A program made the translations under genes and the position numbers. From Planctomycetota bacterium (GTDB lineage: Bacteria > Planctomycetota > B15-G4 > JADJEK01), in the NCBI GenBank assembly GCA_016213895.1, contig JACQZJ010000074.1, forward strand, positions 1 through 36,686: a stretch of 36,686 nt of DNA, given 5' to 3'. This document shows positions 30,083 to 36,686 of the stretch, in pieces. A model generated the notes under the pieces. It was not told the DNA's origin. It made no database searches and saw only the letters and a program-made list of their open reading frames with translations. Each line of letters starts with the position of its first letter. The stretch's first letter is position 1.

Positions 30083-30238
30083 GTGTTGCACCTCCAGTTG
30101 CGGCGGCCCCGGTGGGCGGGGCCGGCGCGCGCCCCGAGGTGGGGCGCGTGCCGTTCCATTCCACGGGTCATGTTACCCCATGCGCCCGCGCGGCCGTCAA
30201 CAGCCGGGCCGTGCGAGAGCGCTACAATGTTCTGCGGA

Positions 30239-30871
30239 ATGTCGATGTCTCTCCCGGATCACGATCCCGCGGGCGCGTCGCGCTCTCTCCTGGAAAGAGC
30301 GAGCCGCGGCGACGCCCTCGCCGTCGACGCGCTGATCGAGCGGCATCTGCCGGGCCTGCGCGCCTTCATCCGCCTCAAGGCCGGAGCGGCGGTGCGCGGC
30401 AAGGAGTCGTGTTCCGACCTCGTGCAGTCGGTGTGCCGCGAGGTGCTCGAGGGCGCTGGCCGCTTCGACTATCGCGGCGAGGCGGCGTTCCGCCAGTGGC
30501 TCTTCACCACGGCCTTGAGGAAGATCGTCGCCCGCCAGCGCCACCACCTCGCCGAGAAGCGCGATGTCAGGCGAGAGCGGCTCCTCTCCCCGATCGAGTC
30601 CGCGAGCCGCGACCGCGATCTGCTCGAGGCCTACACCGGACTGCACACGCCGAGCCGCCTGGCCGCGGCGCGCGAGGAGGTCGAGCGCGTCGAGCTGGCG
30701 ATCGCGCGGCTGCCGGAGGAGTACCGCGAGGTCATCTGCCTCTCGCGCCTCATGGGGCTCGGCCATGCCGAGATCGCGGAGCAGCTCGGCCGCAGCGAGG
30801 GAGCGGTGCGCGTCCTCTTGCACCGCGCCCTGGCGCGCCTCTCCCGCCTCCTCGAACAGCCGCAGGCCTGA
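30239..30871 (+). CDS. ECF-type RNA polymerase sigma-70 factor (planctomycete type)
   Basis: The gene encodes 210 residues with sigma region 2 (about 20-100) and region 4 (about 150-205). Region 2 contains ESCSDLVQSVCREVLE, followed by FDYRGEAAFRQWLFTTALRKI, the pattern of the planctomycete-specific ECF group. Region 4 has the helix-turn-helix LPEEYREVICLSRLMGLGHAEIAEQLGRSEGAVRVLLHRAL. Members of this group are usually linked to a Ser/Thr kinase, which is thought to control them in place of an anti-sigma factor. Here the kinase gene is adjacent but convergent (6 bp between stops), not in the same operon. ATG 30239 was taken; ATG 30245 is in frame too. A TACAAT box at 30223-30228 lies only 10 bases before the start, suggesting a very short leader. 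Confidence 0.9.
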   Translation: MSMSLPDHDPAGASRSLLERASRGDALAVDALIERHLPGLRAFIRLKAGAAVRGKESCSDLVQSVCREVLEGAGRFDYRGEAAFRQWLFTTALRKIVARQRHHLAEKRDVRRERLLSPIESASRDRDLLEAYTGLHTPSRLAAAREEVERVELAIARLPEEYREVICLSRLMGLGHAEIAEQLGRSEGAVRVLLHRALARLSRLLEQPQA

Positions 30872-30877
30872 TCCGCG

Positions 30878-33800
30878 TCACTTCCCGTCCGGCGGCCGCG
30901 CCACGGCCGCGCGGTACTCGGCCAGCTCCTCGCGCAGCCTGGCGAGGAGTTGGGCCTCGGCCGGGTCGGCGGGCGGATCTCCGAGCAGGGCGAGCGCCTG
31001 CCCTGCGGCCTCGGCCGCGCCGCGCGCGTCGCCCGCGCCGAAGAGGATGAGCGCCAGCGTGCGCAGGGTCGCGGCGTCCTGGCCGCCGCTCAGCTCGACC
31101 GCGCGCCGGGCGAAGCGGACGGCGCGCTCCAGGTCGCGGCGCTCGGGCGCGTGCGCCGAGAACAGCAGCCAGGCGTAGTCGGCGTTCTCCTTCGCGCCCG
31201 CGCCTTCACGCAGCGCGGCGCCTTCCAGGATCTCAAGCTGCAGTCCCTGGCATTCGTCGATGACCTCCTCCCGGCCCGCGCGCTGCGCCAGGGCGGCGCG
31301 CGACTGCAGCGCCTGCAGCAGGGTGGTGCGCGCGTCGTCGTCCTCCGGGTCCGCCTGGTGCAGGGAAAGGAGCAGCGCTTGCGCGCGGCGGAAGTCCGTC
31401 TCCGCCGCCTCCGCGCCGCCGGTCGCGCCGCGGGTGATGGCGCGGTTCACCAGGGCCGCGCCCAGCGTGTGCCGCGACAGGGCGTGGCCGGGATCGCGCG
31501 CGCTCAGCTCCTCGCACAGGCGGATCGACTCGTCGAAGGAGAGGACCGCTTCCTCGATCTCGCCGGTGCGCTGCTGGAGCAGGCCCTTGCGGCGCTGACA
31601 GATCGCCAGCTCCGCGAGCGCGGCGCGGTCCGAAGGGTCGCGGGCGAGCAGGTCCTGGAAGAGGCGCACCGCGCGGCTGGAGCGCTCGAGCGCGTCCTCC
31701 TTGCGGCCCATGATCTCGCACACGTTCATGCTGTTCATGAGCGCCGCGCCGAGCTGGTGGCCGGCCACGAGCTTGCGCTCCGAGGCGTAGAGCCGCTCGC
31801 CGACCAGGACGGCGCCATCGTACACGGTGAGCGCGCGTCCCAGGTCGCGCTGCGCCTCGTAGGCGCCGGCGAGCGTTCCGTAGGCGGCCTGCAGCAGCTC
31901 GCCGTAGCGCGCGTCCGAGGCGTCCGCTGCGTAGAGCCTCTCGCCCACGGCCACGGCCTCCTTGCCGGCCAGGACCGCCGCGTTCGGGTCGCTCTCGTAG
32001 CTGGCGACGCGAGCGTGGATCTGGGCCAGGAGGATCTGGCAGGCCGCGTTCTCCGGCTGCGACTCGACCAGCGCCGCGGCCTCGGCGCGCGCCTGCTCCA
32101 GGTGCCGCATGGCGCCGCCCTTGTCGCCCGTGTCCCAGAGGAGCGGCGCGAAGCGCTCGTGCGTCTCGGAGAGCGCCAGCCGGTCCGCGGGATCGGCTCC
32201 GGACCGGCCGGCCAGTTCGCTCCAGACGCGCAGAGCTTCTCCTTGATGCACGAGGGCGTCCTGGCTCGCGCCGCGCTCGAAAAGGAGCGCCGCGATCACG
32301 GCATGCGCCTGTCCCAGGCGGCGCGACCGCTCCACGCTGCCGGATTCGCCCGCGGCGCGCTGCTCGAGCGCGTCGAGCACCTCGCGCCGCAGGTGCAGCG
32401 CGGTCTCGGCGTCTCCCTGGAGGCGGTGAGCGTCGGCCATCCCGCTCAGGGCCGAAAGGCGGCCGAAGAACGCCGTGTCCCGCAGGGCGGGCTCGTCCGG
32501 GAGGCCCTGGAACAGTGCGAGGCCGCGCTCGTGCTCGCGGATCGCGGATCCGGTGTCGCCGAGCGTCACGTACACGCTGCCCAGGCGCACGTGGGCGGCC
32601 GCGAGGTCGGCGCGCAGCGACAGGTCGCCCGCCGCGGCCTCGGCGAGCTTGGCGAGCAGGCCACGGGCGCGCTCCACGATGAGCGAGCGCGCTGGCGTCG
32701 ATCCGGGCAGGTTCTCGATCTTGTCGTGGAACTCGAAGAGGAAGGCGGTCGCCACGGTGCGGATGTCGTTGAAGCGATCGAGAGCGACTTCCTTCTCCTC
32801 TTCCAGCGCGCGCGCGTGGCGCGCCTGTTGGATGCCCACCGCGACCGCGGAGATCACGAACAGGGCGAGGCCGACGAGGAGGGCCGCGCCGGCCGTGGGG
32901 TGGCGCTGGCCGAAGCGCAGCAGGCGCAGCCAGGGGCCGGGCCGCCGCGCGGCGATCGGCCGGCGCTCGAGCACGTTGCCCAGGTCGCGCGAGAAGTCGG
33001 CGGCGGTCTGGTAGCGCCGCTCGCAATCCCGGTCCATGGCGGTGAGCGTGACCGTTTCCGCGTCCCACGGCACGGCGCGGTTCATGACGCGAATCGGCGT
33101 GGGCCGTCCCTCGGCGATGCGGCGGCTGGTGGAATCGTGGCTCTGGTCGAGGTAGGGCGACTCGAGGGTGAGCAGCTCGTAGAGGGTGATGCCGAGGGAG
33201 TAGACGTCGGTGCGCTGATCCACGGCCATGCCGGCCACCTGCTCCGGAGACATGTAGGGCAGCGAGCCGGGCTGGCTGCCGGTGCGCGTCAGGCGCGTGG
33301 CCTCGCGCGTCTGCGCCAGGCCGAAGTCGAGAAGCAGGGCGCGGCCGCTCTGCGTCACCGCGATATTGGACGGCTTGACGTCGCGGTGCAGAACGCCGCG
33401 GCCGTGGGCGTGCTCCAGGGCGTCGGCCACCTGCCGGGCGAGGCGGAAGCAGGCGTCGCCGTAGCTCCCCGCGAACATGCCGGCCGAGGCGCGGGCGAGG
33501 TCCGCGCCCGCGGAGGCGCCGGCCTGGGCCGAGCACTCCTCGATGGCGCGCGCCAGGTCGGCGCCCGCGAGATCCTGCTGCCTGCGGCCGCGCAGGGCCT
33601 TCAGCACGTCGCCCAACGTGCACCCTTCGATCTTCTCCATGGCGAAGTAGGGCACGCCCTTCTCCCGGCCCACGGTGTAGATCGGCACGATGCCCGGATG
33701 GTGCATGCGCGCGACCGCCGCCACCTCGCGCTGGAAGCGCTCGAGCGCGTCCTCGAAGTACATGTTCTCGGGCCGCACGAGCTTGAGCGCGACCGTGCGG

Positions 33801-34105
33801 CCCAGCGGAAGCTGCTCGGCCTCGAAGACCACGCCCATGCCGCCGCCGCCGATGCGCCGGATCAGGCGGAACTCGCCGAGCCGCTCGGGAAAGGCGCCGG
33901 CCTCGCGCGCCTGCGCGCCGACCAGTCCCATCTCTTTGAGCCGGGCGATGTGCGAGCGCAGCGCGGCCGCGTGCTCGGGGTGCTCCCGGCAGATCTCGTC
34001 GACCGCTCCCTCGTCCTGTCCGATGCGCTCGAGGCACTCGAAGACGAGGCGTTCGATCGGATCTTGGGGCTCTCCGGAAAGGCCGCCGGCACCTTCGTCG
34101 CTCAC
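30878..34105 (-). CDS. Transmembrane Ser/Thr protein kinase with TPR-like C-terminal half
   Basis: From GTG 34105 the product is 1075 residues. A short acidic N-terminus with an EHAAALR helix precedes the kinase domain. That domain has a Gly loop (IGGGGMGVVFEAE), catalytic Lys108 (VALKLV), HRDVKPSN with Asp242, DFG at Asp260 and SPEQVAG. A low-complexity insertion lies between the lobes (around SAQAGASAGADLARASAG). One transmembrane helix sits at about 397-420 (LLVGLALFVISAVAVGI). The remaining 650 residues are Ala-rich helix pairs like TPR repeats and would be extracytoplasmic, perhaps binding peptide or protein signals. TTG 34123 (18 bases upstream, AAAGG before it) is an alternative start. 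Its tail-to-tail arrangement with the sigma-factor gene suggests functional pairing. Its 5' 168 bp exist as a degenerate copy in front of the hydrolase gene. Confidence 0.9.
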   Translation of the reverse strand: MSDEGAGGLSGEPQDPIERLVFECLERIGQDEGAVDEICREHPEHAAALRSHIARLKEMGLVGAQAREAGAFPERLGEFRLIRRIGGGGMGVVFEAEQLPLGRTVALKLVRPENMYFEDALERFQREVAAVARMHHPGIVPIYTVGREKGVPYFAMEKIEGCTLGDVLKALRGRRQQDLAGADLARAIEECSAQAGASAGADLARASAGMFAGSYGDACFRLARQVADALEHAHGRGVLHRDVKPSNIAVTQSGRALLLDFGLAQTREATRLTRTGSQPGSLPYMSPEQVAGMAVDQRTDVYSLGITLYELLTLESPYLDQSHDSTSRRIAEGRPTPIRVMNRAVPWDAETVTLTAMDRDCERRYQTAADFSRDLGNVLERRPIAARRPGPWLRLLRFGQRHPTAGAALLVGLALFVISAVAVGIQQARHARALEEEKEVALDRFNDIRTVATAFLFEFHDKIENLPGSTPARSLIVERARGLLAKLAEAAAGDLSLRADLAAAHVRLGSVYVTLGDTGSAIREHERGLALFQGLPDEPALRDTAFFGRLSALSGMADAHRLQGDAETALHLRREVLDALEQRAAGESGSVERSRRLGQAHAVIAALLFERGASQDALVHQGEALRVWSELAGRSGADPADRLALSETHERFAPLLWDTGDKGGAMRHLEQARAEAAALVESQPENAACQILLAQIHARVASYESDPNAAVLAGKEAVAVGERLYAADASDARYGELLQAAYGTLAGAYEAQRDLGRALTVYDGAVLVGERLYASERKLVAGHQLGAALMNSMNVCEIMGRKEDALERSSRAVRLFQDLLARDPSDRAALAELAICQRRKGLLQQRTGEIEEAVLSFDESIRLCEELSARDPGHALSRHTLGAALVNRAITRGATGGAEAAETDFRRAQALLLSLHQADPEDDDARTTLLQALQSRAALAQRAGREEVIDECQGLQLEILEGAALREGAGAKENADYAWLLFSAHAPERRDLERAVRFARRAVELSGGQDAATLRTLALILFGAGDARGAAEAAGQALALLGDPPADPAEAQLLARLREELAEYRAAVARPPDGK

Positions 34106-34123
34106 GCGGCCAGTTGACCACAA
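33956..34123 (-). repeat. Duplicated kinase 5' segment, source copy
   Basis: This 168-bp stretch encodes the first 56 residues read from TTG 34123. It aligns without gaps to 35819-35986, with 29 of 56 residues identical by my count. Identity is complete over the first 20 bases (CTTGTGGTCAACTGGCCGCG, minus strand) and again over EHAAALR at the end. The middle has diverged. Confidence 0.75.
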
Positions 34124-34195
34124 GAGGCCTTTGCGGGGAAGGAGCCCGAGAGAGGCGGGGGGGACAGCCTGTACCGCGCGTCCCGGCCTTCCTCC

Positions 34196-35857
34196 TCAGG
34201 GCCGGAGCGGCAGGAAGAGCGCGCTCGGGTGCTTCTCGCTCATGTGCACCGTGTTGCGGGCCAGCCGCGGCTCGCACCCATCGAGGAAGTCATCGCCGGT
34301 GTTGGGATTCACCGCGAAGCGCGGGTAGCTGCTGCTCGCGATGAAGAGGCCGACGCGGTGGCTGCGGGCGAAGACCAGGCTGATGGACCCGAGGTCGATT
34401 TCGAGCGGCACGATGATCCCCGGTGCGACCGCCTCTGATCTCTCGAAGCCGTTTCGGAAACGCAGGCGGCGGATGCCGTCGAGCATGAGGATCTCGCGGC
34501 CGTCGGGGTAGACGTCCACCAGCCGCGCGGCGAAGTCCGTGTCCGGCGCGTCGCTCGAGACGAACAGCCGGACCATCACCTTGCCCGTGGCCTCCACGGG
34601 CCGGTCCAGCGGCGCGGTCGCGAAGCGCAGCACGTCGGGCCGCCCGGTCAGCCACGACTGATCGAAGGGCAGGCGCGTGAGCGCGAGGCCCAAGAGCGCG
34701 TTGGTCTCGGTCCTGCAGCTCGGCACAGGGTGTCGGGGATCGTGAACGAAGGTCCTGTTGCCCGCCTGCTCGGACGGGGCAGCGCTCCGCAGGAAGCCGT
34801 CCGTTCCGAGGAACCACGGCGTCTCCTCGGTCTCGAACGGCGGCCAGTCCGCGGCGCTGCGCCATTCGTTTCCCGGCGCGTCCTCTGCCTCGACGTCGCC
34901 CAGGGTGTAGTAGCGCACCGCCGGCTCGGACTCGACGCCGTTCTTCGTGCCGTTCAACCAGTGGTCCAGCCAGTACATCTCGGCGCGGAGCAGGTCGAGC
35001 AGGAAGTTCTGCTTGAGGGTCAGGTCGCCGAGTCGGGCTGAAAGCAGGTGGCCGAAGGCCCCCATGATCAGCTTCTGCCCGCTCCTGCCGCCTCCGCGCA
35101 GCCGGAAGTTCCTGAGCGTGCCCTCCGAGAACGCGTCGAACCAGCCGCCGATGAAGAGCGCGGGGACCGGTTCGGCCGGGAGGTGCGTTGCCGCGTCGAA
35201 GGGCCCCCAGAAGTCGTCCTGGAGCGGATGGGCCTTCCAGATCTCGAAGGCGGCGGGGCTCGCGTTCACCACCATCCACGACCGGACCAGCCCCTCGCGG
35301 AAGACGCCTCCCTGGTAGGACGCCTCGCCGTAGAAGCAGGAAGGGCAGAAGGAGACGGCCAGGCATTGCAGTTCCGCCTGGCAGCGAGCGGGCATGAGCA
35401 CCTGGGTGATGCCCCACGCCGACTGGCCGGCGCTGGCGATCCGGCCATTCGACCACTCCTGCGAGCGGATCCACGCGAGCGTGTCCTCGGTATCGGTGAA
35501 CATCGCCGGTACGTCCCCGCCGCTCAGTGGATCCTCGCCGTCGCTGCGCCCCTTGCCGCGGGTCTCCTGGATGACCAGGGCGATGCCGAAGTGGGCGAGC
35601 CCCACGCGGTACCGCGTGACGAACTCCTGGATAAACCTGCTTCCCAGACCCTCCAGGGGGTAGACCGAGCGGATCAGGACCGCGGGGAACGCTGGTCCAC
35701 CGCGCGCCGGCAAATGGACGTCGGTGGCCAGCACGACGCCGTCCCGCATGGGCACGAGGTGCTCCTCTGCGGGAGCGTGGCGCAGGATCGCGGTGCATGC
35801 GAGAAGGACGAAGCACGCGCGCAGCGCGGCCGCGTGCTCGGACTGCTTTCGGTGCAT
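34196..35857 (-). CDS. CocE/NonD-family alpha/beta hydrolase (X-Pro dipeptidyl-peptidase-like), secreted
   Basis: The gene encodes 553 residues. Landmarks of the CocE/NonD family are visible: VPMRDGVVLATDVHLP at the start, QETRGKGRSDGE, and nucleophile Ser146 in AGQSAWG. The catalytic acid is Asp241 in GGWFDAF and the catalytic His is His270 in GAFGHLL. A C-terminal jelly-roll-like domain contains VMVRLFVSSDAPDTDFAARLVDVYPDGR. Known members hydrolyse acyl esters or peptides. The nucleophile motif has Ala-Trp where Tyr-Leu/Gly is usual. The N-terminus (MHRKQSEHAAALR, then CFVLLACTAIL) looks like a signal peptide whose first part is derived from the kinase gene's N-terminal coding sequence. The frame remains open upstream to TTG 35986, so a longer product is possible. 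It is divergent from the last gene of the window. Confidence 0.85.
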   Translation of the reverse strand: MHRKQSEHAAALRACFVLLACTAILRHAPAEEHLVPMRDGVVLATDVHLPARGGPAFPAVLIRSVYPLEGLGSRFIQEFVTRYRVGLAHFGIALVIQETRGKGRSDGEDPLSGGDVPAMFTDTEDTLAWIRSQEWSNGRIASAGQSAWGITQVLMPARCQAELQCLAVSFCPSCFYGEASYQGGVFREGLVRSWMVVNASPAAFEIWKAHPLQDDFWGPFDAATHLPAEPVPALFIGGWFDAFSEGTLRNFRLRGGGRSGQKLIMGAFGHLLSARLGDLTLKQNFLLDLLRAEMYWLDHWLNGTKNGVESEPAVRYYTLGDVEAEDAPGNEWRSAADWPPFETEETPWFLGTDGFLRSAAPSEQAGNRTFVHDPRHPVPSCRTETNALLGLALTRLPFDQSWLTGRPDVLRFATAPLDRPVEATGKVMVRLFVSSDAPDTDFAARLVDVYPDGREILMLDGIRRLRFRNGFERSEAVAPGIIVPLEIDLGSISLVFARSHRVGLFIASSSYPRFAVNPNTGDDFLDGCEPRLARNTVHMSEKHPSALFLPLRP

Positions 35858-35986
35858 CTCGTGGATCACCCCCTCCTCGCGCCCGGTACAATCGACGCGC
35901 TCGAAAGTGGGGCGCTCGACTCGATCCTCGGGATCTTGGCAAAGGCGGCCGGCAATTGCGTCAAACACGCGGCCAGTTGACCACAA
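35819..35986 (-). repeat. Degenerate duplicate of the kinase gene's 5' end, fused to the hydrolase gene
   Basis: Translated in the hydrolase frame, this segment reads LWSTGRVFD, then a diverged middle and EHAAALR. It matches kinase residues 1-56 (from TTG 34123) ungapped at about half the positions. It joins the hydrophobic core of the hydrolase signal peptide immediately after EHAAALR. The duplication may have carried a promoter or translation start with it. Confidence 0.75.
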
Positions 35987-36020
35987 GGAGCGCGCGCGGG
36001 AAAGGCGCCGGGAGCCGCAC
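35858..36020. other. Region between the hydrolase gene and the last gene
   Basis: Most of it (to 35986) is the kinase-derived duplicate. The remaining 34 bases hold the ribosome site (GGAG 36011-36014) of the plus-strand gene. A TACAAT at 35887-35892 lies inside the duplicate on the plus strand, but no -35 partner was found. Confidence 0.45.
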
Positions 36021-36539
36021 ATGACACGGGCCGGGTTGATTGCCGTGCTGCTGCTCTTTGCCCTGGCCGTTACCCTGCTCTTCCGCGGCGGGGGGGAAGA
36101 GGAGCCGCGCGGCGAGGCGCCGGCCGATCGCGCGGCGCCGGCCCGGGCGGACCCACCACCCGTGCCCGCGGCCGCGCGTCCTGCCAGCGAAGACGAAGCC
36201 ACGGGCGGCGCTGCTCCTGCAACGGTCGCGCCGCCCTCGAGCACGGTTCTGCCGGACGGCGTGCCCGCCGCCTCATCCAACCTGCCCGCCGTCCGCGGCA
36301 CGGTGGTCGTGGAAGAACCCGATGGCCGCCTCATCACTGGACTGTCCGGCAAGATGACGATCGTGGTGGACGAGAGGCTCGCGCGCGAAGGCGGCCGCAT
36401 CCGCACGGAACAGGTCGACGTGAAGGAGGGCTCGTGGAGCGCCGTGTTCCTCCCCGGCACGATCATCAAGGTCCAGGATGCCGTTCTGGGCGAGCGGGAG
36501 GTCCTGGTCGATGCTCCGGCCGTAAGGCCGCGTAAATAA
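36021..36539 (+). CDS. Membrane-anchored or secreted hypothetical protein, truncated by IS insertion
   Basis: The open frame has 172 codons. An N-terminal hydrophobic segment (TRAGLIAVLLLFALAVTLLF) acts as anchor or signal. A long Ala/Pro/Glu-rich linker (about 24-90) follows, then a compact beta-type stretch (GTVVVEEPDGRLITGLSGKMTIVVDE, then GSWSAVFLPGTIIKVQDAVLG) resembling the start of a carboxypeptidase-regulatory-like domain. The IS end begins at 36522, so only residues 1-167 are native. The last five residues (VRPRK) and the TAA stop come from the IS. The intact gene was almost certainly longer. A GGAG ribosome site lies 6 bases before the ATG. I do not recognise a specific function. 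Confidence 0.7.
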   Translation: MTRAGLIAVLLLFALAVTLLFRGGGEEEPRGEAPADRAAPARADPPPVPAAARPASEDEATGGAAPATVAPPSSTVLPDGVPAASSNLPAVRGTVVVEEPDGRLITGLSGKMTIVVDERLAREGGRIRTEQVDVKEGSWSAVFLPGTIIKVQDAVLGEREVLVDAPAVRPRK

Positions 36540-36686
36540 ATAACCATCGCGCACCGCCTATGACGACCTCGGGCGAATGACGTAGTTCCAGTCGCCGTGG
36601 AACTTGTTGCGCACCAGGTTCACTCGCCGCATCTCCTCGTCGGTGACCTTGCGGCCCGTCGGGTATCTGCGCCGGTCCAGGCGGCA
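36522..36686 (-). mobile_element. ISAzo13-family insertion sequence, 3' end (right copy)
   Basis: This is the inverted counterpart of the left-edge element: 164 of 165 bases equal the reverse complement of 52-216. The terminus at 36522 interrupts the preceding open reading frame. Its 3' end faces into the window, as does that of the left copy. Confidence 0.87.
36558..36686 (-). CDS. ISAzo13-family transposase, C-terminal fragment (right copy)
   Basis: Forty-two codons plus TAG (36560-36558) of the same transposase tail as at the left edge, with Met in place of Leu at one position. The frame is open at the window edge, so the rest of the gene lies outside. The single difference from the left copy suggests two real, slightly diverged IS copies rather than one sequence read twice, although a sequencing or strain variant would look the same. 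Confidence 0.85.
   Translation of the reverse strand, partial: CRLDRRRYPTGRKVTDEEMRRVNLVRNKFHGDWNYVIRPRSS

Follow-up and report, generated by a model that had tools for sequence, protein, structure and literature searches.

A diverged direct repeat of a kinase 5′ end at the start of a CocE/NonD hydrolase gene in a Planctomycetota bacterium

Introduction

How did the beginning of a hydrolase gene come to resemble the beginning of a neighbouring protein kinase gene, and is the resemblance used? Bacterial genes with unrelated front ends are frequent, and intermediate states are seldom caught. Chimeric genes can arise by partial duplication, in which part of a neighbouring gene supplies the new 5′ end; to our knowledge, the described examples are mostly eukaryotic. 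The locus was analysed in a contig of 36,686 nt from an uncultured bacterium (JACQZJ010000074.1, assembly GCA_016213895.1; hereafter the window) and compared with a same-genus genome (G001), the other genomes of the order and 392 genomes of the phylum.

Results

Extent and layout of the repeat

The features listed here lie on the minus strand, in the order duplicate, hydrolase, kinase:

30878..34105, minus strand: Ser/Thr protein kinase with a TPR-like C-terminal part (GTG start; TTG 34123 alternative)
33938..34146, minus strand: first copy of the direct repeat, comprising the kinase 5′ end and the 23 bp that precede the TTG
34147..35800, minus strand: segment between the repeat copies, hydrolase body, 1654 bp
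35801..36009, minus strand: second, diverged copy of the direct repeat, forming the 5′ end of the hydrolase gene
34196..35857, minus strand: CocE/NonD hydrolase (Peptidase_S15 + PepX_C; proposed ATG 35857 within the duplicate, GTG 35968 alternative)

The initial annotation described a degenerate, ungapped duplication of 168 bp of the kinase 5′ end, placed directly before and in frame with the hydrolase, with protein drift to about half identity. Each of these points held. Positions 33956-34123 and 35819-35986 aligned without gaps over 168 bp (126/168, 75% nucleotide identity), the translated copies were 47% identical over 60 aa, and the frame that joins the duplicate to the hydrolase has no interruption between 36547 and its stop codon at 34196. 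The best-scoring segment was larger: 209 nt (33938-34146 against 35801-36009), gap-free and 73% identical (152/209). The copies differ by 57 substitutions in 209 bp, and the hydrolase copy has neither indel nor stop.

In a genome-wide BLAST with the kinase 5′ end, this segment (E = 5.2e-28) had no equal; the second-ranked hit covered only 32 nt (E = 6e-4), and the repeat is therefore not a chance match. Further copies of the kinase 5′ segment were sought in the genome, and only short GC-rich matches and an ordinary paralogous kinase (contig C103) were found. An assembly artefact might be suspected, as the genome is a draft of 218 contigs and the contig ends 677 bp past the repeat, in an insertion sequence; however, the two copies are mismatched at 27% of sites, a divergence that is not a product of assembly errors, and the E value of 5e-28 opposes coincidence. 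Chance similarity or artefact is thus extremely improbable. A transposon target duplication was rejected: 209 bp is far too long, and no transposase is encoded in the insert. The Rfam search of the region gave no match.

The insertion sequence at the contig edge belongs to the ISAzo13 family (PF07592), has an apparent TAA target duplication and interrupts a divergent gene adjoining the duplicate (36021-36539, 36526-36686 and, on another contig of this genome, C39:1-155). The divergent gene runs on uninterrupted in G001, which makes C110 and C39 probable neighbouring contigs joined through this element.

Constraint on the two copies

The kinase scored 130.6 bits against PF00069 (Pkinase; cut-off 31.7), and its G001 orthologue is 88% identical with the GTG conserved. 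A short N-terminal module (..CLDRxExxG..CxEHPEHAxxLR..) recurs in other Ser/Thr kinases of the order, and the window kinase is an ordinary member of this group. The duplicate carries the sequence of the module without its conserved residues: FECLER has become FERVDC, HPEH has become QSEH and only EHAAALR is kept, so that the set of residues conserved in related kinases (CLDR, HPEH and LR) is no longer complete.

Mismatches between the copies are spread evenly over the codon positions (15/12/15), with dN 0.31 and dS 0.28, whereas the kinase and its G001 orthologue differ by dN 0.07 and dS 0.25. One copy is therefore constrained and the other is not: these rates indicate that the kinase is under purifying selection and that the hydrolase copy is unconstrained, or changing under a new role. 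Given the indel rates between the genomes, the absence of indels and stops from the duplicate is suggestive only as a sign of frame constraint.

An ECF-type sigma factor frame, identified by eye at about 30200-30871 on the plus strand, lies tail to tail with the kinase, and this pair is kept in G001.

The hydrolase and its start region

The hydrolase scored 320.4 bits against TIGR00976 (curated cut-off 66.3), and PF02129 and PF08530 were both above their cut-offs. The catalytic Ser, Asp and His, in GQSAWG, GGWFD and GAFGH, align with those of seven homologues (patterns GxSxxG and GGW[FY]D). The domain order and catalytic positions are those of the CocE/NonD family; the leader, unlike those of the relatives, is kinase-derived. 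Among the 392 phylum genomes, the nearest hydrolases reach at most 44% identity, and their leaders are their own and unrelated; no close donor was identified for this reason. At E 1e-40, none of the other 13 genomes of the order gave a match to the hydrolase (a weaker relative is present in G002), and a scan of the genome_contigs set with the hydrolase as query gave no match. Horizontal acquisition is probable.

Homologous hydrolases with the same N-terminus in genomes lacking the kinase had been named as counter-evidence by the initial annotation; no hydrolase with this N-terminus was found in the 392 phylum genomes, nor any other protein with it outside the two kinases. The description of the locus as gene birth was overstated, because this CocE/NonD enzyme is old and retains a complete catalytic triad, and its distant homologues have their own leaders.

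The features of the hydrolase start are as follows:

35872..35877, minus strand: AGGAGG, inferred ribosome-binding site 14 nt ahead of the ATG, not present in the kinase copy
35819..35841, minus strand: 23-bp identical block at the inner end, coding EHAAALR, identical to kinase 33956-33978
35768..35857, minus strand: apparent signal peptide MHRKQSEHAAALRACFVLLACTAILRHAPA (hydropathy and inspection), n-region kinase-derived

The best start for the hydrolase is ATG 35857, which is ATC in the kinase copy; the AGGAGG-ATG spacing of 14 nt is long. By inspection, the protein would begin with a charged n-region (MHRKQSEHAAALR), a core (ACFVLLACTAIL, mean hydropathy 2.72) and a RHAPA cleavage site, which together make an apparently good signal peptide. 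The earlier proposal that the EHAAALR of the duplicate forms the n-region agrees with this anatomy, and the residues are encoded by the identical 23-bp block. Just past EHAAALR, 11/18 positions are identical to the kinase (P 0.004) and relatives have similar cores of their own; the kinase origin of the hydrophobic core is uncertain.

The outer copy might instead be the dead remnant of a tandem kinase (an untranslated leader or pseudogene scrap), with the hydrolase using its own start and the fusion incidental. The near equality of dN and dS in the duplicate would suit such a remnant, the window (70% GC) is rich in long spurious open frames, and the hydrophobic core is perhaps the hydrolase's own (compare LRVLVLLAWL in L110). 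However, no start downstream of the duplicate leaves a signal peptide, the only suitable ATG being inside the duplicate, and 209 bp with 57 substitutions contain zero indels and two long identical blocks. A dead remnant is unlikely on this balance.

Identical blocks

The second identical block lies at the start of the kinase and at the corresponding place in the duplicate:

34103..34124, minus strand: 22-bp identical block CTTGTGGTCAACTGGCCGCGTG, kinase copy, ending with the kinase GTG start
35966..35987, minus strand: 22-bp identical block, hydrolase copy, same sequence as 34103..34124

Two runs of at least 22 are unexpected for 57 randomly scattered mismatches (P = 0.00025). The block had been reported as 20 fully identical bases and is in fact 22 bp long. 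Conservation of the 20-mer in relatives, a test named in the initial annotation, was found in the one same-genus genome available: the start region of the G001 kinase is TTGTGGTCAACTGaCCGCGTG, in which the 20-mer is kept. Across 14 genomes of the order, the 13-mer TTGTGGTCAACTG has just three occurrences, two in the window copies and one ahead of the G001 kinase. The linker and upstream DNA around the start block show little conservation between G001 and the window. These observations favour a functional start-region element, and the shared 22-bp block probably serves the expression of both the kinase and the hydrolase.

The earlier claim of a captured promoter went further than the evidence: only 23 bp upstream of the TTG were duplicated, and the promoter scan found no sigma-70-type consensus (the terminator scan found no terminator). 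Promoter capture at the hydrolase is plausible.

Comparison with G001 and timing

The G001 kinase is syntenic (88% nucleotide identity) and collinear exactly to 34123, where the sequences begin to differ. G001 has one copy of the kinase 5′ end and no detectable hydrolase. Of the private states of the duplicate, 14 are common to the window kinase and 5 to the G001 kinase (one-sided binomial P ~0.03, a weak signal), and the duplicate and the window kinase share 6 nt absent from G001. An intergenic stretch is 23% different between the genomes, which is similar to the 27% between the copies; together with the 14 v 5 states, this suggests that the duplication dates near the species split. The duplicate branch is longer than the neutral expectation since the split, and the duplication is therefore possibly older: it may slightly predate the split, with later loss in G001.

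Upstream of the G001 kinase, a dispersed repeat sets in no more than 7 bp from the start. Beyond it lie genes that are found on contig C59 in the window's genome, where they adjoin another copy of the repeat. With this repeat and the C59 genes adjoining the kinase, the G001 junction is read as either rearranged or misassembled, and the duplicate may have been lost in G001 for that reason. A hydrolase may also have been missed in G001, because the neighbouring gene runs into the end of a contig there. The dispersed repeat is ~240 nt long and was found at L105:5123-5363 and at about 60 sites in the window's genome, with ~69-92% identity to the G001 copy. Its sequence folds into a long hairpin with imperfect pairing, and in G001 it lies at the rearranged edge upstream of the kinase. 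No Rfam family matched it at four loci.

The same comparison bears on a further explanation, in which the duplicate arrived with the hydrolase from a bacterium with a divergent kinase of the same 5′ end and was integrated by homology at the kinase. That no other genome of the order gave a hydrolase match at E 1e-40 fits this account, as do direct repeats around an insert, the expected trace of single-crossover integration. A donor kinase would nevertheless predict differences mainly at third codon positions and retained family residues, neither of which was observed, and the duplicate is closer to the window kinase than to the G001 kinase. This origin is very unlikely.

Discussion

The explanation that we prefer, and consider quite probable, is that the 5′ end of the kinase was partly duplicated around a probably acquired hydrolase, which gave the hydrolase a chimeric 5′ end. 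The arrangement is observed and its timing inferred: a segment bearing the hydrolase would have been placed before the kinase gene near the split from the sister species, leaving the hydrolase flanked by 209-bp direct copies of the kinase 5′ end and the kinase with its own 5′ end complete. Such a repeat could have formed when a circle with kinase homology integrated by a single crossover, or by tandem duplication and subsequent deletion. The outer copy, released from its kinase role, would have drifted while retaining the start-region block; the substitutions ATC to ATG and GAC to GAG would have supplied the new start codon and the AGGAGG, and the kinase-derived EHAAALR, whose place in the anatomy is observed, would have come into use as the n-region of the signal peptide.

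A more far-reaching version is doubtful. It holds that an export signal was remade from the DNA of a cytoplasmic kinase, which supplied the n-region and half of the core (SHIARLK to ACFVLLA), that an ATG and a ribosome-binding site arose there anew, and that the 22-bp element co-regulates both genes.

The rnk-citT fusion of the E. coli long-term experiment is a known case of promoter capture by tandem duplication, in which the captured promoter was found experimentally to drive expression (PMC5918244). There, likewise, a gene was placed behind the 5′ region of another gene, with a truncated fusion frame at the junction; the rnk-citT duplication is large and recent (PMC5918244), whereas the window repeat is 209 bp long, old, diverged and in frame with the hydrolase, which it may or may not help to express.

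The window locus is a new instance of a known process, the making of a chimeric front end. Within the class of chimeric genes it differs from most described cases in being bacterial and in that the donated piece appears to have become a start region and the n-region of a signal peptide. Because the donor and its derivative lie side by side and a single-copy relative is available, the steps from a coding fragment to a leader and n-region can be read site by site. The locus also offers a small candidate control element that has been kept in both copies.
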